Assembly: GCF_900109885.1 (NCBI RefSeq)
Contig: NZ_FOBS01000009.1
Location: 1 to 64,000, forward strand
Reading direction: 5' to 3'
DNA: 64,000 bases
From: Syntrophus gentianae
GTDB taxonomy: Bacteria > Desulfobacterota > Syntrophia > Syntrophales > Syntrophaceae
The position numbers and the translations under genes are program-made. Of the stretch, positions 923-10,653 are shown one piece after another. The notes under the pieces were generated by a model that had not been told where the DNA came from, did not search any database, and saw nothing but the letters and a program-made list of their open reading frames with translations. The stretch's first letter is position 1. Each line of letters starts with the position of its first letter.

Positions 923-2239
923 ATGATGACCAGTCCACCAAAAAAAGAAGATCCGTTCATTACGAATACAACTGTTGTTCGAAGACCTTATTGGACAGTG
1001 CTATTTGTCGTGGGTGTGATGTTTGTTTTATATATCCTTGATGCACCGATTAAATTTGGCCGTGCCATCTCTTTAGATCAGACCAAATCCATGGCTCCGA
1101 TAATTGTCCGTGTCTGCCTCGTCCTTTTCATGTGTGGCAATATCGTGATGAGAGTTCTATCCGGTGCGAAATTATTCACTCTTTTCAATATGTTTCTATT
1201 TTCTTTTGCCGGGATCAATCTGTTTTATATGTATAAGTTGGGCTGGACTCCTCTGATGTTTGGGATTGAAGCGTATCGTTATCTTTACTGGTTTATAATT
1301 TTTTTGTTTTTTTTCACAAATGCATACCAGTTCCGGATTAATAATTCTTTGATAAACAAATTGCTCTTGCCATGGTTTTTCTTTGTTTTCTTTCAGGTTG
1401 TAATAATGAACTTGGAACGTGCCGGATCTACGGGCTCTTTAAATCTTTTGGCTATTAATGCCGGCTATATCGCATTGGATTTTCTACCGCTTTTTTTGAT
1501 TTTAAATGGCAATAAAAAGGGGCTTATGAATGCGCCTTATTTTATTATTGTGATGATTGGCATCGTTTTGCTTGTTTCACTTAAACGCGGTGCAATTTTG
1601 TCATATTTACTAGGTGTGATGGCGTACATAGGGCTGAAGGAAAAGATTGAAACCGGCAGTTTGGTATCACTATTTCGCACTGCGTTTAAGTTTGGTATAA
1701 TGATAATTTTGTTGGCAATTCCATTTTTATTAAAGGCAGATCAATTGATGCATCGATTTGCTGATACGACAGGTTCGGGCCGGACTACCCTGTACAAACT
1801 CATTTATGACCATTGGCTTATGGGCTCTCTAAGTGATAAAATTTTTGGTTATGGCTACATATCGGTTAAAAGTTACTTAGATGCCAAGTTTAATTGCCCT
1901 ATTTATGCGCACAGTGATTTTCTCGAATACTTACATGATTATGGCTTGTTGGGCATTTCCATTTATGTATGCATTCACTTGGCATTGATTCATGTCTTAT
2001 ATCGTCTATATACCAAGCGACATTGGATGTGCCCAGTTTTGGGTTGCTTTTATGTCATATTCTTATGTAGGGCGATTTATTCCGGTGTCTTTGCTATTGG
2101 ACCTGCTTTTGCTCTTGGTGCTATGTTTCTGGGGCTTTTAGGAGGCTACTATTATAAACTTCGCGATTTACATGTTAAAAAACAAAAGGTTGGCACAGCT
2201 TGGGGTGTTCCCAAAACGCAGAATATGATTCCAGGATGA
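923..2239 (+). CDS. O-antigen/exopolysaccharide polymerase (Wzy-like) membrane protein
   Basis: This 438-residue, very hydrophobic protein has about ten membrane segments and a large periplasmic loop near residues 270-345. The loop holds GRTTLYKLIYDHW, GYGY, then AHSDFLEYLHDYGLLG, the arrangement typical of Wzy polymerases and WaaL ligases, where the loop binds undecaprenyl-linked glycans. It would polymerise lipid-linked repeat units at the periplasmic face of the inner membrane. The start ATG at 923 lies 5 bases after the broken ATP-grasp gene, and the next gene follows after 1 base, so the genes are probably co-transcribed. Polymerase and ligase cannot be separated by sequence alone; the setting beside glycosyltransferases favours polymerase. 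Confidence 0.75.
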   Translation: MMTSPPKKEDPFITNTTVVRRPYWTVLFVVGVMFVLYILDAPIKFGRAISLDQTKSMAPIIVRVCLVLFMCGNIVMRVLSGAKLFTLFNMFLFSFAGINLFYMYKLGWTPLMFGIEAYRYLYWFIIFLFFFTNAYQFRINNSLINKLLLPWFFFVFFQVVIMNLERAGSTGSLNLLAINAGYIALDFLPLFLILNGNKKGLMNAPYFIIVMIGIVLLVSLKRGAILSYLLGVMAYIGLKEKIETGSLVSLFRTAFKFGIMIILLAIPFLLKADQLMHRFADTTGSGRTTLYKLIYDHWLMGSLSDKIFGYGYISVKSYLDAKFNCPIYAHSDFLEYLHDYGLLGISIYVCIHLALIHVLYRLYTKRHWMCPVLGCFYVIFLCRAIYSGVFAIGPAFALGAMFLGLLGGYYYKLRDLHVKKQKVGTAWGVPKTQNMIPG

Positions 2240-2240
2240 T

Positions 2241-3365
2241 ATGACAAAACGGAAAATTCTTTTTCTAATCCCAAACTTAGGTGGTGGCGGAGCCGAACGT
2301 GTTTTCCTCCATTTGTTGAATAACCTCGACCGTTTAAAATTTGATTTTCATCTTTGTGTTTTGAGACAGGAAGGTCCTTTCTTTTCTGAATTGAGCTCAG
2401 ATGTAACCGTTATTAATCTAAATACTTCTTTAAGACGTTCACTTTTTAAAGTGGCTGATACTATTAGAAATTTACACCCGGATGTTGTCCTGAGCAACGT
2501 CTGTTTCATGAATCTGATCACCGGGTTTGCCAGAATGTATCTTCCAAATCAGATACCCTTATACCTTGCCAGGGAAAGTGGTATTCCTTCTCAACGTAAA
2601 CTTTTATATAAAAATAAATTCCTGCGATACATAGAATTATTATACAGGTTATCTTATAGACTCTTTGATGGCATTATCTGCCAATCGGACGATATGCTCT
2701 TTGACGTGCATAAAATGTACGGTGTGCCACAGAGGAAACTCATAAAGATTAATAACCCTGTCGATATTGATCACATTCAACGATTAGCCAATGATATTGT
2801 AGCAACAAAATTTCTACCAGACAAGACGAACCTCTTAGCAGTAGGCAGACTCAATCAGCAGAAGGGTTTCGATCTGCTATTGCAAGCAATGGCGTTGACG
2901 AAAAATAAAAGGCTGCATCTTCACATTCTTGGGGAGGGTGATGAGTACGGAAAGCTCCGCAGCCATGCAGAGGAATTGCGGTTGTCCGACCGTGTCACGT
3001 TCCACGGATTTTGCAAAAACCCCTATGCCTATATGGCAGCGGCGGATGTTTTTGTGATGACCTCACGGTACGAAGGATTTCCAAACGCAATGGTTGAAGC
3101 AATGGCTCTTGGCTGTCCGACAGTAGCTTTTCAGTGCCAGGGAGGATTAAACGAAATCATTAAGAATTGTATGAACGGTTATTCCGTTGAATTCGGAAAT
3201 ATAAGAGAATTCGCTATGTTGTTGGACAAGGGGGATTATTTAAATTTGGACCGAAAACTTATTGTGAAGGACATATGGAACCGTTACCGATTGGATAAAA
3301 TCGTTAAGGAATATGAGTACATCCTTACCAATGTATGCAAGAAAGACTGCCGGGAAACAGGCTGA
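2241..3365 (+). CDS. GT4-family glycosyltransferase
   Basis: A cytoplasmic or membrane-associated glycosyltransferase of 374 residues with the two-domain GT-B fold. The N-terminal acceptor domain starts MTKRKILFLIPNLGGGGAER with the glycine-rich loop. The donor domain holds VGRLNQQKGFDLLLQA and the EX7E motif E278-GFPNAMV-E286, which contacts the nucleotide sugar. Length is normal for GT4. It would add one sugar to the undecaprenyl-linked repeat unit; donor and acceptor cannot be predicted. It starts one base after the Wzy-like gene. Confidence 0.88.
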   Translation: MTKRKILFLIPNLGGGGAERVFLHLLNNLDRLKFDFHLCVLRQEGPFFSELSSDVTVINLNTSLRRSLFKVADTIRNLHPDVVLSNVCFMNLITGFARMYLPNQIPLYLARESGIPSQRKLLYKNKFLRYIELLYRLSYRLFDGIICQSDDMLFDVHKMYGVPQRKLIKINNPVDIDHIQRLANDIVATKFLPDKTNLLAVGRLNQQKGFDLLLQAMALTKNKRLHLHILGEGDEYGKLRSHAEELRLSDRVTFHGFCKNPYAYMAAADVFVMTSRYEGFPNAMVEAMALGCPTVAFQCQGGLNEIIKNCMNGYSVEFGNIREFAMLLDKGDYLNLDRKLIVKDIWNRYRLDKIVKEYEYILTNVCKKDCRETG

Positions 3366-3509
3366 CATTCTTACAAGATGGCATATGGGGTGCGATGTTT
3401 TTGCGGATTAGCGCACATGGGTGAATAATTGGCAGACATCAAGGCTAAGGGGAGAAATTACAATATTGAAAGCTGCCCAATTATACTTGATGGTCGGTTG
3501 CAATCGGCC

Positions 3510-4790
3510 ATGAAAAAGCTGAAGATATTGATAATTGAGGCCTATACAGATGCGAATGTTGGATCGGGTGCCCTTGTTGAGAATACAGTAAATATTCTCA
3601 GAAAAAGATATGCTAATGCGGATATCCGAGTCATGGCTCATTATCCGGATTCATTTCGAGAACTTTGCCAGATTCATGCAGTTGAAGATGTGTTTCAGTA
3701 CCCATTCGGCAAGGGACGTTTTGTACAGGTAGTTTGGCTATGCAGAACCCTGATCTGGATGTCGATTATCTTCGCTCAAACGATCTTTTTCCCGCAGGGC
3801 AAGATTTTGCTATTCAAGGGAAAGGTGAGAGAATTTTTATGGGCGGACGTTGTGGTTAGCGTTGGGGCAGAACGTATCAATGACAAATTTATTAAGAACA
3901 TTTGTTTCTCACTTTACACTTACGAAATAGTGAAGCGTCTCGGACGTCCAATGGTGCTCTTCCCTTGCACAATCGGACCCTTTCTGTTCAAGTCAACCCA
4001 ATGGCTTGCGGCAACAGTGTTAAGGCATTTGGATTTGATTTACACAAGAGACAATCTTTCCTTCAAGACGACATGTGGATTGAAAGGTGTAGGTAAGAAA
4101 AAGGTGGTCAATACATCAGATGTGGCCATATTCCAGCCGCAAGCAGATCGAAACCGTGCATTGAATTTGATAGGTGCGAAAGATGATGAATATATAGTTG
4201 GCATTTCCGTTATGCGATGGTCTTATGTCGCAAACAGTGTTGATACAGCGTATAGCAACTATGAATCATATGTTAGAGAGATGGCTTTTTTCGCAGATAA
4301 TCTTGTGGAGCGTTATGGCGTGACGGTCATTTTCTATCCTACGAATTTCCCTGTGCGAGGTTGCCGGGAAGACGATGTAACGACCGCACGGGAAATCCAA
4401 TTGAGAATGCGGTACAAAGATCGGACTCGCATCATAGAAAAGTTACCGAGACCTTCTGATCTTAAGGGGATGCTTGCTTGCTCAGAGATCAACATAACAA
4501 CACGGATGCATGCCTGCATATTGTCAACAGGGGCCTATGTTCCAACCATCTCTATTAATTATCTTTTTAAACTGCGAGAATACATGCATTCTTTGGGATT
4601 AGGAGATTTTTCAATCGATATTGAACAGTTCAACGCTGATTGGGCACTGAAAGCCTTCAATCTGTTATGGGATAAACGATCTTATTGGAGGGGCAAAATT
4701 CGTGAAGGCGTTAGAATAAAGCAAGAACAACTGTCCACATCAATGGAACAATTTGATGCTCTTCTGCAAACAAGACAAAATATATTTTAG
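3510..4790 (+). CDS. Polysaccharide pyruvyltransferase family protein
   Basis: From ATG 3510 the protein is 426 residues and begins MKKLKILIIEAYTDANVGSG followed by ALVENTV, the family's usual start (a glycine-rich loop after the first strand). An in-frame TTG at 3429 would add 27 residues without family-like sequence; neither start has a strong ribosome site. Later landmarks are VSVGAERINDKF, PCTIGPF, YTRDNLSF and TTRMHACILSTGAYVPT, which fit the GT-B-like fold of CsaB/WcaK-type ketal pyruvyltransferases. These transfer pyruvate from PEP to sugars of surface polymers, although members with other roles exist. The 3' end overlaps the next, iron-sulfur, gene by 38 bases, which suggests translational coupling. 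Confidence 0.82.
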   Translation: MKKLKILIIEAYTDANVGSGALVENTVNILRKRYANADIRVMAHYPDSFRELCQIHAVEDVFQYPFGKGRFVQVVWLCRTLIWMSIIFAQTIFFPQGKILLFKGKVREFLWADVVVSVGAERINDKFIKNICFSLYTYEIVKRLGRPMVLFPCTIGPFLFKSTQWLAATVLRHLDLIYTRDNLSFKTTCGLKGVGKKKVVNTSDVAIFQPQADRNRALNLIGAKDDEYIVGISVMRWSYVANSVDTAYSNYESYVREMAFFADNLVERYGVTVIFYPTNFPVRGCREDDVTTAREIQLRMRYKDRTRIIEKLPRPSDLKGMLACSEINITTRMHACILSTGAYVPTISINYLFKLREYMHSLGLGDFSIDIEQFNADWALKAFNLLWDKRSYWRGKIREGVRIKQEQLSTSMEQFDALLQTRQNIF

Positions 4791-5913
4791 CTTGGATCGT
4801 TGTTGCCAATGTGGCGTTTGCTTAGCGTCTTGTCCAGTAGGCGCTATAAGCCGTACATGGGATGATGATGGGCTATTTTGTATACACGTCGATGCAGAAA
4901 GATGTGTCAAATGCCAAAAGTGTGTTCAAAATTGCCCTGCGACTACCTTACCGAGTATCATTCTAAAAGAAGAGGATTGGAGTGCCATATCTCAAGTATA
5001 TATTGGCCATGCCCTTGATGAGGTGGTCCGGTACAGGGCATCATCAGGCGGTATCGCGCGTACGCTCATTCGTAATGCTCTAGTGAAGGGATTTTGTCAA
5101 TTAGCGTATACCATGACCGATGCTGATTCATATCCATGGGCTATGGGAGGATACATATCACAGGAATCCTGTAACGCGCAAGTTTCCAACTCGAAATACT
5201 TGCCTGTTCCCGTCTGTGAAAACCTAAGACAACTCTCCCCAGGCAATCTACTGGTGGTGGGAACGCCTTGCCAATTGCTGGCTATGGAAGCCTTTTACCG
5301 TTCAACTAAAGTCAGGTTAATCAAGATTTGCATCCTCTGCAAGCAACAAAAAACCTTCAATTTCAGCCGGTTTATGGCAAAGCGTTTGGGTGTTACTGAT
5401 TACAAGAGTGTTCCAATACAATATCGTGGGGATGGCTGGCCGGGAAAAATTGCAATAGGGACGAAAAAAATGTGCTGGGAGGAAGCTGCAGCTCTGCCGT
5501 ATAGTAAGCGACTTTGGTCTGTCCCTGGTTGTTTTTTCTGCACCCATCCTTTAGGTTCTAATGCTGACCTGACCTTGGCAGATCCCTGGAAAATAATGAA
5601 TACCAAACAAAGTGGCATGACGATGATTCTTATTAGGACCGAAGCTGGGGAGAAGCTTCTTGATCTTAGCTGCAAGGAGATAGCACTCCAAAGCATTGAC
5701 TCGGATCGGGCAAAACTATCAGTCGACTGGCAAGGGATACAAGCGAAACAGAAGAGAACGAAATATTATTTGAGTAAATCATTGGGGGGGGGCACACGAC
5801 TGAAGTTCAAAGTGGGTGATTTCCAGAGAGCTTCATATGAATGGCTTTTATTGTCTCTCAAGCTTCCGGAGCTTGCGTTAAAGGTACTCAACCGTATGCC
5901 TTATTGGGGATAA
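4753..5913 (+). CDS. Coenzyme F420 hydrogenase/dehydrogenase beta-subunit family protein with two 4Fe-4S clusters
   Basis: The 386-residue protein starts at TTG 4753 or ATG 4756, inside the end of the pyruvyltransferase gene. Two bacterial ferredoxin motifs are present: C17-x2-C20-x2-C23-x3-C27-P and C51-x2-C54-x2-C57-x3-C61-P. They precede an FrhB/FpoF-like region with VVGTPCQLLAMEAF, then CILCKQQKTFNF and later CFFCTHPLGSNADLTLADPW. Family members bind flavin and move electrons between ferredoxin-like centres and a cofactor. In polysaccharide loci such genes are often seen next to pyruvyltransferase-family genes and their reaction is not established. No F420 synthesis genes are in the window, so F420 use is only a family name. 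Confidence 0.82.
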   Translation: MMLFCKQDKIYFSLDRCCQCGVCLASCPVGAISRTWDDDGLFCIHVDAERCVKCQKCVQNCPATTLPSIILKEEDWSAISQVYIGHALDEVVRYRASSGGIARTLIRNALVKGFCQLAYTMTDADSYPWAMGGYISQESCNAQVSNSKYLPVPVCENLRQLSPGNLLVVGTPCQLLAMEAFYRSTKVRLIKICILCKQQKTFNFSRFMAKRLGVTDYKSVPIQYRGDGWPGKIAIGTKKMCWEEAAALPYSKRLWSVPGCFFCTHPLGSNADLTLADPWKIMNTKQSGMTMILIRTEAGEKLLDLSCKEIALQSIDSDRAKLSVDWQGIQAKQKRTKYYLSKSLGGGTRLKFKVGDFQRASYEWLLLSLKLPELALKVLNRMPYWG

Positions 5914-6052
5914 AAAAATTTACGTTGGAAACAAGGAAGTAGTTGTGTCATGTAGAATATGTAATTAATTCAGGAGTGTGCATCAAAATTAATAAAAAAT
6001 GACTCAATCTTGGTTTTTTAACGATTAATGCAAGAAGAATAATGATGCGGTC

Positions 6053-7276
6053 ATGAAAATACTTTTTTTAAATAATTATTTTTATATTCGTGGTGGCTCG
6101 GAACGGGTATTTTTCGGTGAAATGGACCTTATGAGAAATCATGGGCATGAGATCGCAGAGTTTGCTAGAAGACACTCCCTGGATATGCCATCAAAGTACA
6201 GTCATTTTTTCCCACAAGATATTGTAACAGATAAAATCAGTATCTCATGGGACGCGGTCAGGACAGTTAAAGAAATATTCTATTCCGTGAGTGCACGGGA
6301 TGGTTTAGACAAGTTGATTTCGCAATTCAAGCCAGCGATTGCTCATGTCCATAATATGTATGGACGTTTAACAACCTCCGTCCTGGATGTGCTTTCGCAA
6401 AGAAGAATACCAACATTAATGACCCTCCATGACTATAAAGTAGTGTGTCCCAGCTATAGATTCATGTTTGAAAATCATATTTGTGAGGATTGTAAAGGAG
6501 CTCGATATTACATGGCAGTAAAAAATCACTGCCACAAGAACAGCTTTGCAGCATCTGCCATGGTTGCCATGGAATCTTATTTTAATGAGTGGTTCAACAG
6601 GTACAAAAAAAACGTACGATATTTTATATCTCCAAGCCGCTTTCTCGAGAATAAATTAATTGAATTTGGTTGGCCAGAAAGACAAATTAAGTTCGTTCCC
6701 AACTTTTTAGACTTATCTGAATTTGATCCAAATTATAGCGCGGGAGACTATCTTCTCTATCTCGGTCGACTCTCTGAAGAAAAGGGCGTAGCGACTTTGA
6801 TCAAGGCATTTACACAATTAAAGAATGATAAACCAGAACTAGTGATTGTCGGTGATGGTCCCATGCGAAAAGAATTGGAAGAGATTACGCGGAATCATTC
6901 CCGTATAAGATTTGCAGGATATCTGTCCGGCAGCGCCCTTCGTGAAGTAACCCAAAATGCTTTAGCAGTTGTCGTCCCCTCTGTATGTTACGAAAATGCT
7001 CCCATCTCAATTCTGGAAGCATTGGCCTATGGCAAGCCCGTAATCGGTGCTAACATTGGTGGAATACCGGAAATGATTCAGAATGGTGTAAACGGTTATT
7101 TGTTTGAATCAGGGAATTGCAATGACTTAAAAAATGCTCTGGAGTATATGATAAATTTGCCTGCAGCTGAAATAGAGAAAATGGGCATGGACGCTCGACG
7201 GATTGTGGAAAGAGAAAACAGTTCAGAATCTCATTACCTTAAGCTGATGGATATTTATCAAGAAATTCAAGCATGA
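6053..7276 (+). CDS. GT4-family glycosyltransferase
   Basis: A GT-B glycosyltransferase of 407 residues. It begins MKILFLNNYFYIRGGSERVF, with the N-terminal glycine-rich loop, and has YLGRLSEEKGVATLIKAF and the EX7E motif E314-NAPISIL-E322 in the donor domain. A cysteine-containing insert near residues 132-162 (CPSYRFMFENHICEDCKGA and a following C) could bind a metal or disulfide and is seen in some GT4 enzymes of capsule loci. Its stop overlaps the start of the acyltransferase gene by 4 bases. About 140 AT-rich bases separate it from the upstream gene, with no clear promoter. Donor and acceptor are unknown. Confidence 0.88.
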   Translation: MKILFLNNYFYIRGGSERVFFGEMDLMRNHGHEIAEFARRHSLDMPSKYSHFFPQDIVTDKISISWDAVRTVKEIFYSVSARDGLDKLISQFKPAIAHVHNMYGRLTTSVLDVLSQRRIPTLMTLHDYKVVCPSYRFMFENHICEDCKGARYYMAVKNHCHKNSFAASAMVAMESYFNEWFNRYKKNVRYFISPSRFLENKLIEFGWPERQIKFVPNFLDLSEFDPNYSAGDYLLYLGRLSEEKGVATLIKAFTQLKNDKPELVIVGDGPMRKELEEITRNHSRIRFAGYLSGSALREVTQNALAVVVPSVCYENAPISILEALAYGKPVIGANIGGIPEMIQNGVNGYLFESGNCNDLKNALEYMINLPAAEIEKMGMDARRIVERENSSESHYLKLMDIYQEIQA

Positions 7277-7704
7277 ATAGAATAAAGATAAAAATAGGAG
7301 CACTGATACGTAAGTTGATTGTAAAATATTATCGCTTCCTGGGAGTCGTTATTGGTAATAATGTTTTTATTAGCCATGCATGTAAGATCGACACAACGTA
7401 TCCTGGCAGTGTCTTTATTGAAGATAACGTTTATATCACCTATGGGGCAATAATCATAGCCCATGATCATTCGGTATATCGCCATAGACCATTTATACAG
7501 GATAATGGTCGAGGGAAAGTTGTTATTAAAAAAAATGCCTTTATCGGTGCCGGTGCAATAATACTGAGAGATGTAACGATTGGCGAAAATTCTGTTGTTG
7601 CGGCAGGATCCGTTGTAACCGCGGATGTTCCCACGAATAGTATTGTAGCCGGCAATCCTGCAAAAATTTTAAAATTCTTTTCTCCAAAAGGAACATCAAA
7701 ATAA
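7273..7704 (+). CDS. Left-handed beta-helix (hexapeptide repeat) acyltransferase
   Basis: This 143-residue protein has hexapeptide repeats from about residue 25 to 125, for example IGNNVFISHACKI, IEDNVYITYGAIIIAHDH, IKKNAFIGAGAIILRDVTIG and ENSVVAAGSVVTADVPTNS, and closes with IVAGNPAKILKFF. This is the form of WcaF/MaaT-type O-acetyltransferases that use acetyl-CoA. The histidines in the AHDHS loop are likely catalytic. The ATG overlaps the preceding glycosyltransferase stop, so the acetylated acceptor is probably a sugar of the same repeat unit. Confidence 0.85.
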   Translation: MNRIKIKIGALIRKLIVKYYRFLGVVIGNNVFISHACKIDTTYPGSVFIEDNVYITYGAIIIAHDHSVYRHRPFIQDNGRGKVVIKKNAFIGAGAIILRDVTIGENSVVAAGSVVTADVPTNSIVAGNPAKILKFFSPKGTSK

Positions 7705-7832
7705 TATTTTAATTCAAAGTAACAGGTTTTCAATATCACTAATTCTGATTTCAGAAGTCTCCACTAACATAAATAATCAGCATTGGAGGATTAAACAACC
7801 GCCAACTGCAGAGAGTCTATTTAAGGATATCT

Positions 7833-8945
7833 ATGCGAATTGCTTACATCGCCATTAAAGGCATACCCATTGGAGGTGGAATCGAAAAGGTCACGGAAGA
7901 GGTCGGTTCTCGCCTTGTCAAGAAAGGGCACGAGATTGTCGTATATTCCAGCCGAGATTACGGGACGACTGCAGATTGCCAGTTCAAAGGAATGGAAATT
8001 AAGACAGTTCCCTCGATAAATACCAAAGCCCTCCATAAACTATCCATATGCTATTATGCAACGCGCGATGTAATGCGCAACAGGAATGTAGATCTTGTCC
8101 ATGTTCATGCGGTCGGTCCTTCTGTATTTTCAATCTTTCCTAGGTTGAAAGGCATTCCGACGGTTGTCCAGACGCATGGCCTGGAGTGGAAGCGGGACAA
8201 ATGGGGGGTTATCGGAAAGACCTTTTTCAAGCTTTCTGACTACAGCGTAGTTTATTTTCCCAACAAGGCCACCTCGGTTTCCAAGGTACAGAAGCAATAT
8301 TATGAAGAGAAATTTGGTAGAGAGGTCGTTTATATTCCCAATGGCGTCAGTCCCGTTGAAAAGCTTGCACCTCGGTGGATCCTGGAACAGGGGATTGAAC
8401 CGAACCGTTATATCCTTTTTGCCGCACGGCTGGTGGAAGAAAAAGGACCACACTTCTTGATCCAGGCTTACCGGAGGCTGGACACTGATATGAAGTTGGT
8501 GATTGCCGGCGATGCCGCCTATGCAGAAAAGTACAAGGCCCAGCTGAGAGAACTGGCTGGGAATGATCCTCGTATTCTCTTCCCAGGGTTTGTCACTGGT
8601 GAACCAATGCAGGAGTTATTCAGCAATGCTTACCTCTTTTGCCTGCCCTCAACTCTCGAAGGGCTACCGGTTGCTCTTCTGGAAGCCATGAACTATGGGA
8701 ATTGCTGCGTTTCCAGCGATATTCCCGAAAATCTGGAAGCCATTGAGGATAACGGTTACACCTTCCACAACCGCGACTATGAAGACTTGCAGCGAGTCCT
8801 GCATGATCTATTGCAACATCCGGAAAAGGTGCAAGCGAAGAAGGAAGCAGCTCTGCAACATGTTCGGCGCAACTATTCCTGGGATAGAGTCGCGGATCAG
8901 ATGGAAGAACTCTACATGAGTCTCATAAAAAAGAAGTCAACATGA
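7833..8945 (+). CDS. GT4-family glycosyltransferase
   Basis: A GT-B enzyme of 370 residues starting MRIAYIAIKGIPIGGGIEKV. The donor domain contains FAARLVEEKGPHFLIQAYRR and the EX7E pair E276-GLPVALL-E284. The region near HVHAVGPSVFSIFPR matches the acceptor-side histidine of PimA/WbpH-type enzymes. Upstream lie 128 bases without a gene. It is the last glycosyltransferase before the exosortase block. The donor is not predictable. Confidence 0.88.
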   Translation: MRIAYIAIKGIPIGGGIEKVTEEVGSRLVKKGHEIVVYSSRDYGTTADCQFKGMEIKTVPSINTKALHKLSICYYATRDVMRNRNVDLVHVHAVGPSVFSIFPRLKGIPTVVQTHGLEWKRDKWGVIGKTFFKLSDYSVVYFPNKATSVSKVQKQYYEEKFGREVVYIPNGVSPVEKLAPRWILEQGIEPNRYILFAARLVEEKGPHFLIQAYRRLDTDMKLVIAGDAAYAEKYKAQLRELAGNDPRILFPGFVTGEPMQELFSNAYLFCLPSTLEGLPVALLEAMNYGNCCVSSDIPENLEAIEDNGYTFHNRDYEDLQRVLHDLLQHPEKVQAKKEAALQHVRRNYSWDRVADQMEELYMSLIKKKST

Positions 8946-8958
8946 GTGGCAAATCAAT

Positions 8959-9069
8959 ATGGAATGTGTTGCGTGTAATACTTGTCAGCACCCGAGTGAA
9001 AGAGAAAAGGAGATTTTTCTGGCGACCCTGGAAACCCTGCCTCCAAGTTTATTAAAAAGGAGAGTTTGA
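8959..9069 (+). CDS. Possible small cysteine-motif peptide
   Basis: A 36-codon frame from ATG 8959 gives a peptide that starts MECVACNTCQHPSEREK, with C-x2-C-x2-C, and ends LPPSLLKRRV, stopping 6 bases before the exosortase gene. There is no clear ribosome site. An overlapping alternative frame (8942-9055, 37 codons) begins at an ATGA overlap with the preceding glycosyltransferase stop. Either could be spurious; the cysteine pattern and acidic/basic balance are the only reasons to record it. Confidence 0.2.
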   Translation: MECVACNTCQHPSEREKEIFLATLETLPPSLLKRRV

Positions 9070-9075
9070 AAGATT

Positions 9076-10653
9076 ATGGTGATGAATGAAAAAAACCTCA
9101 ACAATACTGCACTGTGTGTCGGTATCCTGTTGGTATTCTTTACGTGTGCTTACTGGGTGCCCCTGAAATCGATGGTTTCCACGTGGTGGCATAACGATGA
9201 TTATTCCTATGGATTTTTCATCCCGCTGATTTCTCTTTATCTGTTCTGGGATAAGCGGCAACTTCTTAAAAATCTTCAGTTCCACAGTTCATGGGTGGTG
9301 TTTCCGCTGCTCCTGCTTTTTGTCCTCATTTCCCTGTATGGCATCCTTGGGTCTAGTGGAAACATCTCCATGCCTGCCGTACCTGTTTTGATCATTCTTT
9401 TTTCTGCCTTCTGCTTTGGTATTCAAGCTTTCCGGCAATTGATCCTTCCTCTTGGATTTCTTGTATTCATGATTCCCGTACCTCCGGTTATCGAGAACCA
9501 CTTGGGTGTTTTTCTGAAATCAATCTCTTCGAAAATAGGTGGACAGATCATTGAGCTGTTTAACATTCCCGTGCATGTCAGCGGCAACATCATTGACCTG
9601 GGCTTTACTCAATTGCAGGTCGTTGATGCTTGCAGCGGTCTGCGGTATCTTTTCCCCCTGATTGCGCTTGGGGTGCTTTATGCCTATTTCTTCGAGAAGA
9701 TTGCATGGAAAAAGCTAGTCTGCGTAGCGGCTACAATTCCAATTGCCATTTTAGTAAACGCTTTGCGGATCGGTGCGACTGGTATCCTGGCAAATTTCTG
9801 GGGGCCTTCTGTTGCTGAAGGCTTTTTCCATGGCGCTTCTGCGTTTGTCCTCTTTGCCGTGGCTTTTGCCATGCTCTTTCTTATAGGTCTCATTCTGCGC
9901 AAATTGCCCCCAAAGGTGCCTGAAGTCGTGAAAGCTAATTCAATGGAAAAGATGGAACAGGCTTCCATTCCGGCAGGTGATGGAAAATCGGCCTTTTATG
10001 TGTCTCTGTTGATCCTATCCGTTGTTGGATGGCTTAGTTGGAGCACGGGGGCTATGCCCGCAGTTAAAATTCAGGGGGGGATTCAAAGCTTTCCTTTGTC
10101 CATCGGGGCCTGGCAAGGCCAGATGGAGTTGGTCGATCCAGAGATCATTGAAAAATCAGGAGCGGAAGAAGCCTTCAGCGGCCTTTACAGGAATCCGGAA
10201 AGCGGCGATGTGTCACTGTATATGGGTTATCGGAGTTCGGCATTCCTTGCTAATGAGAATTATTTTCACAGTCCCACAGTCTGCCTGCCGTCTTCAGGAT
10301 GGATCGTGAAAGAAACGACAAAACATGTGATTCCTGATGTTCCCCATTTTGGCCAGATTTCAGTCAGCAAGATGGTGATCGAAAATATGGGGGCCCGGCA
10401 ACTGGTTTATTTCTGGTTCCAGACAAAGGATAAAGCAACCTCTGACAAAAATATCAACCGTTTTCACCTGGCTATGCATGCCATCATGCGGGATAACACC
10501 TATGCACTTTTCATTCGGCCGATTACCCCTATTCGTCAAGGTGAATCCATGGCGGATGCAGAAAAACGAATGGACCAGTTTGTACGGGAAATGGTGGGGG
10601 CGCTTGATAAATATCTTGAAAAAAATATCATTCGGACATCACGCCAAAGCTGA
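9076..10653 (+). CDS. Exosortase with fused EpsI domain (XrtD-like)
   Basis: A 525-residue inner-membrane protein. Residues 1-285 form the multi-spanning exosortase core with the three conserved catalytic residues: C186 in VDACSGLRYL, R231 in NALRIG and H252 in FFHGASAFV. Residues 310-510 form a periplasmic EpsI-like domain (LYMGYRSSA, FHSPTVCLPSSGW, LVYFWFQT). In most systems EpsI is a separate protein; the fused form is known for VPLPA-CTERM-type exosortases. The enzyme cleaves proteins carrying a C-terminal sorting signal and probably joins them to a surface polymer. It lies between glycosyltransferase and export genes, as exosortases in EPS loci do. No protein in the window has a PEP-CTERM-like tail. 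The exact subtype would need an HMM comparison. Confidence 0.85.
   Translation: MVMNEKNLNNTALCVGILLVFFTCAYWVPLKSMVSTWWHNDDYSYGFFIPLISLYLFWDKRQLLKNLQFHSSWVVFPLLLLFVLISLYGILGSSGNISMPAVPVLIILFSAFCFGIQAFRQLILPLGFLVFMIPVPPVIENHLGVFLKSISSKIGGQIIELFNIPVHVSGNIIDLGFTQLQVVDACSGLRYLFPLIALGVLYAYFFEKIAWKKLVCVAATIPIAILVNALRIGATGILANFWGPSVAEGFFHGASAFVLFAVAFAMLFLIGLILRKLPPKVPEVVKANSMEKMEQASIPAGDGKSAFYVSLLILSVVGWLSWSTGAMPAVKIQGGIQSFPLSIGAWQGQMELVDPEIIEKSGAEEAFSGLYRNPESGDVSLYMGYRSSAFLANENYFHSPTVCLPSSGWIVKETTKHVIPDVPHFGQISVSKMVIENMGARQLVYFWFQTKDKATSDKNINRFHLAMHAIMRDNTYALFIRPITPIRQGESMADAEKRMDQFVREMVGALDKYLEKNIIRTSRQS

Follow-up and report, generated by a model that had tools for sequence, protein, structure and literature searches.

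The FrhB/PF04230 gene pair and its locus

We analyzed a 64,000-nucleotide stretch of the Syntrophus gentianae genome (contig NZ_FOBS01000009.1, positions 1 to 64,000, hereafter the window), in which two overlapping plus-strand genes encode a polysaccharide pyruvyl transferase of the PF04230 family and an iron-sulfur flavoprotein of the FrhB family. The PF04230 gene (3510..4790) encodes 426 residues from ATG 3510, and its open frame extends further 5′ to a TTG at 3429; the Pfam match of 106.1 bits against a cut-off of 25.3 bears out the pyruvyltransferase-family identity given in an earlier note on this DNA. The FrhB gene (4756..5913) encodes 385 residues from ATG 4756, the codon right after an alternative start, TTG 4753. 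Depending on the start, the genes share 35 bases (4756..4790, plus strand) or 38. The nearest relative that we found of the window FrhB, a Phocaeicola massiliensis protein (L061:9001; 34% identity), starts with M-L, 15 residues ahead of the first cysteine of its ferredoxin motif. Because this relative begins at the same point as ATG 4756, ATG is the likelier start, so that the overlap described in the earlier note stands but its length is more probably 35 bases than the 38 given there. An inverted-repeat scan of two short stretches found none, and promoter and terminator counts were close to those of shuffled sequences.

The pair lies in a polysaccharide locus (923..10653, plus strand) recognized from its open reading frames and their Pfam and NCBIfam matches. 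The locus encodes a Wzy/ligase-like protein, three GT4-type glycosyltransferases, a hexapeptide-repeat acetyltransferase-like protein and an exosortase, and is followed by chain-length and export genes. The glycosyltransferase, Wzy/ligase-like and exosortase neighbours agree with the surface-polymer setting previously proposed for both genes.

In the PF04230 protein the motif R332-x-H334 (4503..4511, plus strand) is retained, its histidine being invariant across 52 aligned members; we take this motif to have the catalytic role that it has in characterised pyruvyl transferases. The protein missed the equivalog cut-offs of WcaK and CsaB by a wide distance (NCBIfam TIGR03609, 70.1 of 213.1; PRK10017, 58.4 of 399). 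Its AlphaFold2 model (mean predicted local distance difference test score, pLDDT, 84.9) retrieved GT-B enzymes in a fold search, and a GT-B fold is therefore predicted. Among the best 50 rows of either fold search we recognised no chain of a pyruvyl transferase, a result that carries no evidential weight.

The FrhB protein, read from TTG 4753, from which its residues are numbered here, matched PF04432 at 58.0 (cut-off 23.3) and several Fer4 models, and PF04422 barely over threshold (22.4 versus 22). Both CxxCxxCxxxC motifs (C17-C27 and C51-C61) are intact, as the earlier note had it. In the ferredoxin domain (4801..4935, plus strand) we assign C17, C20, C23 and C61 to cluster I and C51, C54, C57 and C27 to cluster II, presuming the usual split of a 2[4Fe-4S] ferredoxin. 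The flavoprotein-type core recognised earlier is likewise upheld by the PF04432 match, and to it we add four cysteines that had been missed, C173, C196, C260 and C263 (5269..5541, plus strand), equivalent to Cys 104, 134, 192 and 195 of FrhB, which are described there as the ligands of the core cluster (PMC3591093). Because these further conserved cysteines match the core [4Fe-4S] ligands, the window FrhB is predicted to carry three clusters and one flavin; by alignment, residues near the predicted flavin site are retained. The AlphaFold2 model of this protein superimposed on a subunit of an F420-reducing enzyme (8riu_B; Z 24.1, root-mean-square deviation 5.3 over 316 residues) and on 7-hydroxymethyl chlorophyll a reductase (HCAR, 5dqr_D; Z 20.4, 4.3 over 298 residues), suggesting a reductase-type fold.

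FrhB genes are paired with PF04230 genes in seven phyla

The S. gentianae genome contains five PF04230 matches and three PF04432 matches, and all three of the latter adjoin, or are fused to, a PF04230 domain. The fused copy, on contig C1, is a single open frame that covers both domains in 870 residues, with a heptosyltransferase gene about 3 kb away. In a genome of the same genus (G199) its counterparts are separate neighbours, twice, with a similar gene before them. Further fusions were found in G052 (782 residues) and in G201, in a frame of 1,768 residues; this last frame (L176:626-5929) joins FrhB, PF04230, heptosyltransferase, TPR and GT2 domains in one. Among 198 genomes of the phylum, PF04432 was matched in 99 and PF04230 in 39, and by our hand count from the tables at least 16 of the 49 listed PF04230 matches have a listed PF04432 match no more than 5 kb away, where our own arithmetic, assuming a few PF04432 genes in each genome of roughly 3.5 Mb, predicts well below one pair by chance. 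PF04432 had no match in the E. coli control genome.

To find pairs elsewhere, we searched plasmids by tblastn, which led to named records. Annotated pairs are present in Klebsiella aerogenes, Parabacteroides distasonis and Lactiplantibacillus plantarum (in the last with a flippase gene in between), and reading open frames added two pairs of Phocaeicola massiliensis and an overlapping one on pSymB of Sinorhizobium meliloti 1021; pairs are located among glycosyltransferase and flippase genes. A scan of genome contigs with three FrhBs confirmed 147 relatives, of which the best 80 were kept. Because the query was an alignment of three sequences, that of 19 FrhBs being too divergent, the 80 sample one subgroup, that of Klebsiella, S. 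meliloti and the lactobacilli rather than the clade of the window protein; similarity of the FrhBs, not the partner, decided which loci were picked. In all 80 loci a PF04230-type gene lies near FrhB on the same strand, with a weakest best E value of 1.5e-23 against our own profile of 19 PF04230 proteins (18 paired and one unpaired copy from S. gentianae), and each of the 51 partners scanned with Pfam matched PF04230. The PF04230 gene comes first in 67 loci and FrhB in 13; the distance to the profile start does not exceed 150 bp in 70 loci and ranges from 184 to 2,430 bp in the other ten. These loci span Pseudomonadota, Cyanobacteriota, Bacteroidota, Bacillota, Chloroflexota, Verrucomicrobiota and Acidobacteriota. 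The distances of the two partners over the 80 loci correlate (r 0.92; 0.47 for distant pairs only), a value that lacks a third-gene control and that we do not use.

For comparison we scanned 36 other FrhB loci of the phylum (30 and 6 from two sources), with flanks mostly of 1.5 kb as against 6 kb in the named loci. PF04230 matched in three of them, all already among the 16 phylum pairs; a fourth (L025) likewise belongs to those pairs, its partner lying beyond the scanned stretch. A tree was made of 72 FrhBs, after the best 80 had been reduced to 31 rows and duplicates removed; the FrhBs of 13 of 32 control loci, which fell below limits of E 1e-20 or 250 residues, were left out. In this tree the 20 controls make up a single branch (support 99), the label paired or control needs a single change, and the window FrhB is the sister of the paired Phocaeicola protein. 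The tree was made by a quick method and has long branches, including that of the window protein.

Neighbouring positions in seven phyla, the occurrence of either gene order and the fusions argue that the PF04230 and FrhB genes are functionally linked, and the co-occurrence check suggested in the earlier note, which had held the two genes to be probably translated together, finds the families co-conserved, even though the copy in the window is accessory. PF04230 is present in 10 of the 41 genomes sampled around this one, itself included, and the absence of a PF04230 match from the same-genus genomes G198 and G200 is what marks the pair as accessory; polysaccharide genes often are. Chance neighbourhood was considered and is ruled out by the phylum-wide adjacency, the 80 of 80 loci and the fusions.

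Several of these loci are unusual in themselves. The Phocaeicola massiliensis locus (L061:4372-11294) holds both pairs of that species, with overlaps of 28 and 4 bases, and its two FrhBs sit in separate, well-supported branches of the tree. The PF04230 protein of another pair (L043:2249-5025) has 576 residues, and inspection of 8 kb by eye showed no glycosyltransferase-like neighbour and an integrase-like gene at one end. A 13.5-kb plasmid of Klebsiella aerogenes, typed as mobilizable, carries FrhB and PF04230 together with two glycosyltransferase genes and one for lipopolysaccharide biosynthesis (L060:341-6268), an unusual location for surface-polysaccharide genes. A DNA search with this K. 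aerogenes pair against 5,426 E. coli genomes gave no match, near or distant; more divergent genes may exist there.

Paired FrhBs have signature residues, two of them in place of the F420-contact loop

We then compared 101 paired FrhBs (the best 80 and 21 others) with the 20 controls. In the segment S97-S98-G99-G100 (5041..5052, plus strand), which by alignment to FrhB lies at the start of the helix facing the FAD pyrophosphate, S98 is found in 100 of the 101 paired proteins and in one control. R225 (5425..5427, plus strand) is likewise present in 100 paired proteins and in no control. In D277-P278-W279 (5581..5589, plus strand), D277 occurs in all 101 and W279 in 99, each in none of the controls, the W279 position being gapped in 17 of these.

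D277-P278-W279 occupies the place of S209-V210, the F420-contact loop of FrhB: D277 is 14 residues past the second cysteine of CxxC, the spacing that S209 has in FrhB, where S209 is described as lying near the bound F420 (PMC3591093). CofE had no match in the S. gentianae genome, and the best CofH match scored 42.7 against a cut-off of 374.1. A CofD match is present and is regarded as non-specific because E. coli matches too. With the contact loop replaced and CofE not found, the F420-dehydrogenase label that the FrhB gene had been given is misleading.

The iron-sulfur ligands are lost stepwise while the partner is kept

The ferredoxin ligands of the 101 paired FrhBs fall into three main states. 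Among the best 80, cluster I has four ligands and cluster II none in 75, four and one in a single protein, and one and none in four lactobacilli. Among the other 21, the full set of eight ligands is found in 16, four and three in one, and four and none in three, which come from Klebsiella, S. meliloti and Parabacteroides, the last an anaerobe; the Lactiplantibacillus plantarum protein has one cluster I ligand and zero in cluster II. Cluster I is complete in 96 of the 101. The core cysteines are complete in 95, the exceptions being L050 and five lactobacillar proteins; the latter have S, C, S and T at these positions and a total of four or five cysteines per open frame. These five retain S97, S98, G99, G100, Y149, R225, D272, D277 and W279, together with a PF04230 partner. 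As judged by alignment, the paired FrhBs thus appear to form a series with ligands for three, two or no clusters and a constant partner, in which the flavin site, and not the iron-sulfur part, seems to be what is conserved.

A proposed reaction for the pair

A flavoprotein of a reductase family tied to a phosphoenolpyruvate (PEP)-dependent pyruvyl transferase would most simply reduce the product of that transferase. We propose, with a probability that we put at roughly 0.45, that the pair works like MurA and MurB, by enolpyruvyl transfer followed by reduction to a 1-carboxyethyl (lactyl) ether. The PF04230 protein would move the enolpyruvyl group from PEP onto a sugar hydroxyl of the growing polymer unit, and the ferredoxin-FrhB protein would then reduce the enol-ether double bond at its flavin, with electrons coming from reduced ferredoxin via the [4Fe-4S] clusters. 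The product would be an O-(1-carboxyethyl) ether in place of the usual cyclic pyruvate ketal. MurB reduces an enolpyruvyl ether to a 1-carboxyethyl ether, and BciB, of the FrhB family, reduces the vinyl group of a chlorophyll precursor. Of the redox step tied to sugar modification that the earlier note envisaged, the gene linkage and the surface-polymer locus are supported; the specific MurA/MurB-like reaction is our proposal from sequence. We suggest more tentatively, with doubt prevailing over confidence, that this is a widespread second pathway of enolpyruvyl transfer and ene-reduction, unrelated in sequence to MurA/MurB, that makes surface lactyl ethers with an F420-free FrhB reductase, one that would have shed all three iron-sulfur clusters in lactobacilli.

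Known polymers offer partial parallels. According to passages of one survey, Klebsiella types K22, K37, K8 and K66 have a pyruvyltransferase gene, yet capsules without pyruvate (PMC4616057). For the K22 capsule, a title cited in PMC3857182 names 4-O-[(S)-1-carboxyethyl]-D-glucuronic acid as a constituent, and K37 is said there to differ from K22 in an acetyl group only. Lactic acid on galactofuranose (Galf) is described for the diheteroglycan of Enterococcus faecalis type 2 and type 5 (PMC3060912), and one of the cps genes tabulated for E. faecalis V583 in PMC2766626, cpsG, belongs to the MurB family.

Several points weigh against the proposed reaction. K22 and K37 would support the combination of PF04230 with a lactyl ether and not FrhB itself, because the one 'coenzyme F420 hydrogenase' gene of the Klebsiella loci, reported along with two 'nitroreductase' genes, is mentioned in passages of the text that leave the types holding them unnamed (PMC4616057); K8 and K66 stay unexplained. 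In Enterococcus, V583 itself may or may not make the lactic-acid glycan, and among known polymer structures none could be linked to an organism with the pair. Ferredoxin is ill-suited as a donor to the lactobacillar forms that lack iron-sulfur ligands. As to the window proteins, the FrhB model is of moderate confidence only (mean pLDDT 70.1), the FrhB has another residue at 12 near-invariant positions of the paired consensus, at W250, D265, E269 and Q324 among others, and the PF04230 protein keeps an R-x-H like that of WcaK. Separately, at the position two residues before the PF04230 histidine, where the window protein has R, 12 of the 14 unpaired rows that are not gapped there also have R and two have P, and S, F or Y are seen only in rows from FrhB-bearing loci. 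In this survey 9 of 122 rows were gapped, and the unpaired proteins were 20 of 33 matches (17 found by the profile) with L002 and WcaK; we give the pattern little weight because the rows share ancestry, gaps are present and the unpaired sample is partial.

The retained R-x-H would suit an ordinary ketal made by the PF04230 protein, with FrhB reducing or oxidising another compound of the pathway, such as a keto-sugar intermediate, and the position of the pairs among glycosyltransferase and flippase genes fits this as well. We consider it unlikely, since an enzyme for sugar redox chemistry in general would be expected without PF04230 too, and in the fusions and in 80 of 80 loci the partner is PF04230 itself. 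The flavin might instead be redox-neutral, as in UDP-galactopyranose mutase, and help the PF04230 protein in ketal formation or in fixing the stereochemistry of the ketal. The five lactobacillar forms, having lost most ligands of the three clusters and kept flavin-site residues and partner, speak for such a role; the retention of the core ligands and of cluster I in nearly all other paired proteins points to a steady electron supply and makes this explanation rather improbable.

That FrhB is a redox sensor or scaffold switching pyruvylation on and off appears very improbable. The number of clusters does differ among groups, loosely with lifestyle, but the anaerobe Parabacteroides (L063) is without cluster II, the same as aerobes, the forms without iron-sulfur ligands would be unable to sense through clusters, and the near-invariant R225, D277 and W279 suggest catalysis. 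Least credible of all is an ordinary subunit of an F420-linked hydrogenase or dehydrogenase placed in a polysaccharide locus by coincidence, for which the family name and the passed PF04432 cut-off speak. The replaced contact loop, the CofE result and a CofH match far under its cut-off led us to reject an F420 enzyme, and the tree separates the 20 controls from the paired FrhBs.

If the MurA/MurB-like reaction proves true, the origin of lactyl ethers in surface polysaccharides becomes testable gene by gene, genes labelled as F420 hydrogenase beta subunits would be renamed in bacteria that do not necessarily make F420, and the paired FrhBs would offer a natural flavoenzyme series with ligands for three, two or no iron-sulfur clusters beside one constant partner.

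Other features of the window

The window begins at base 1 of its contig. Its first ~300 bases contain a small, insertion-element-like open reading frame on the minus strand, noticed by eye and without a Pfam match, and positions 462-917 hold a RimK-like ATP-grasp fragment whose front part seems to be missing. The exosortase (9076-10653) scored 397.9 bits, barely below the XrtD (VPLPA-CTERM) cut-off of 400.

Comparison with known systems

To our knowledge, no enzyme pair making lactyl ethers outside peptidoglycan has been described. Such ethers themselves are reported from O-antigens of several enterobacteria in passages of PMC10609480, and they are known from capsules as well. Our literature search on F420 and pyruvyl polysaccharide terms, with subscription journals mostly outside its scope, found no title or abstract describing the pair or its reaction; of the papers matching most narrowly, PMC4616057 alone deals with surface-polysaccharide loci, going by title. 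In a 2023 study of 123 gut genomes, lipopolysaccharide and exopolysaccharide genes were enriched within 10 kb of K00441 genes, a link called previously uncharacterised (PMC10267222); these genes share annotation and locus type with the window FrhB, and the passages available from that study name neither a pyruvyl transferase partner nor a reaction for them.

The window FrhB shares its fold with HCAR, whose substrate is chlorophyll and for which we know of no pyruvyl transferase partner. It shares its architecture with the N-terminal half of F420-dependent sulfite reductase, described in PMC10229431 as a two-cluster ferredoxin domain with a one-cluster flavin domain. From this enzyme and from FrhB, the window protein differs in having D-P-W for the F420-contact loop and in its partner, a PF04230 protein and not a hydrogenase or sulfite reductase.

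With WcaK and CsaB, whose known product is a ketal, the window transferase has the PF04230 family and the R-x-H motif in common, but no FrhB gene adjoins wcaK in E. coli K-12. Neither protein of the pair matched MurA or MurB among 10 Pfam families or the best 25 of 36 NCBIfam families. The chemistry proposed here would nevertheless be that of MurA and MurB, with an enolpyruvyl group taken from PEP and then reduced at a flavin to a lactyl ether, carried out by unrelated families and presumably on a sugar of a surface polymer.

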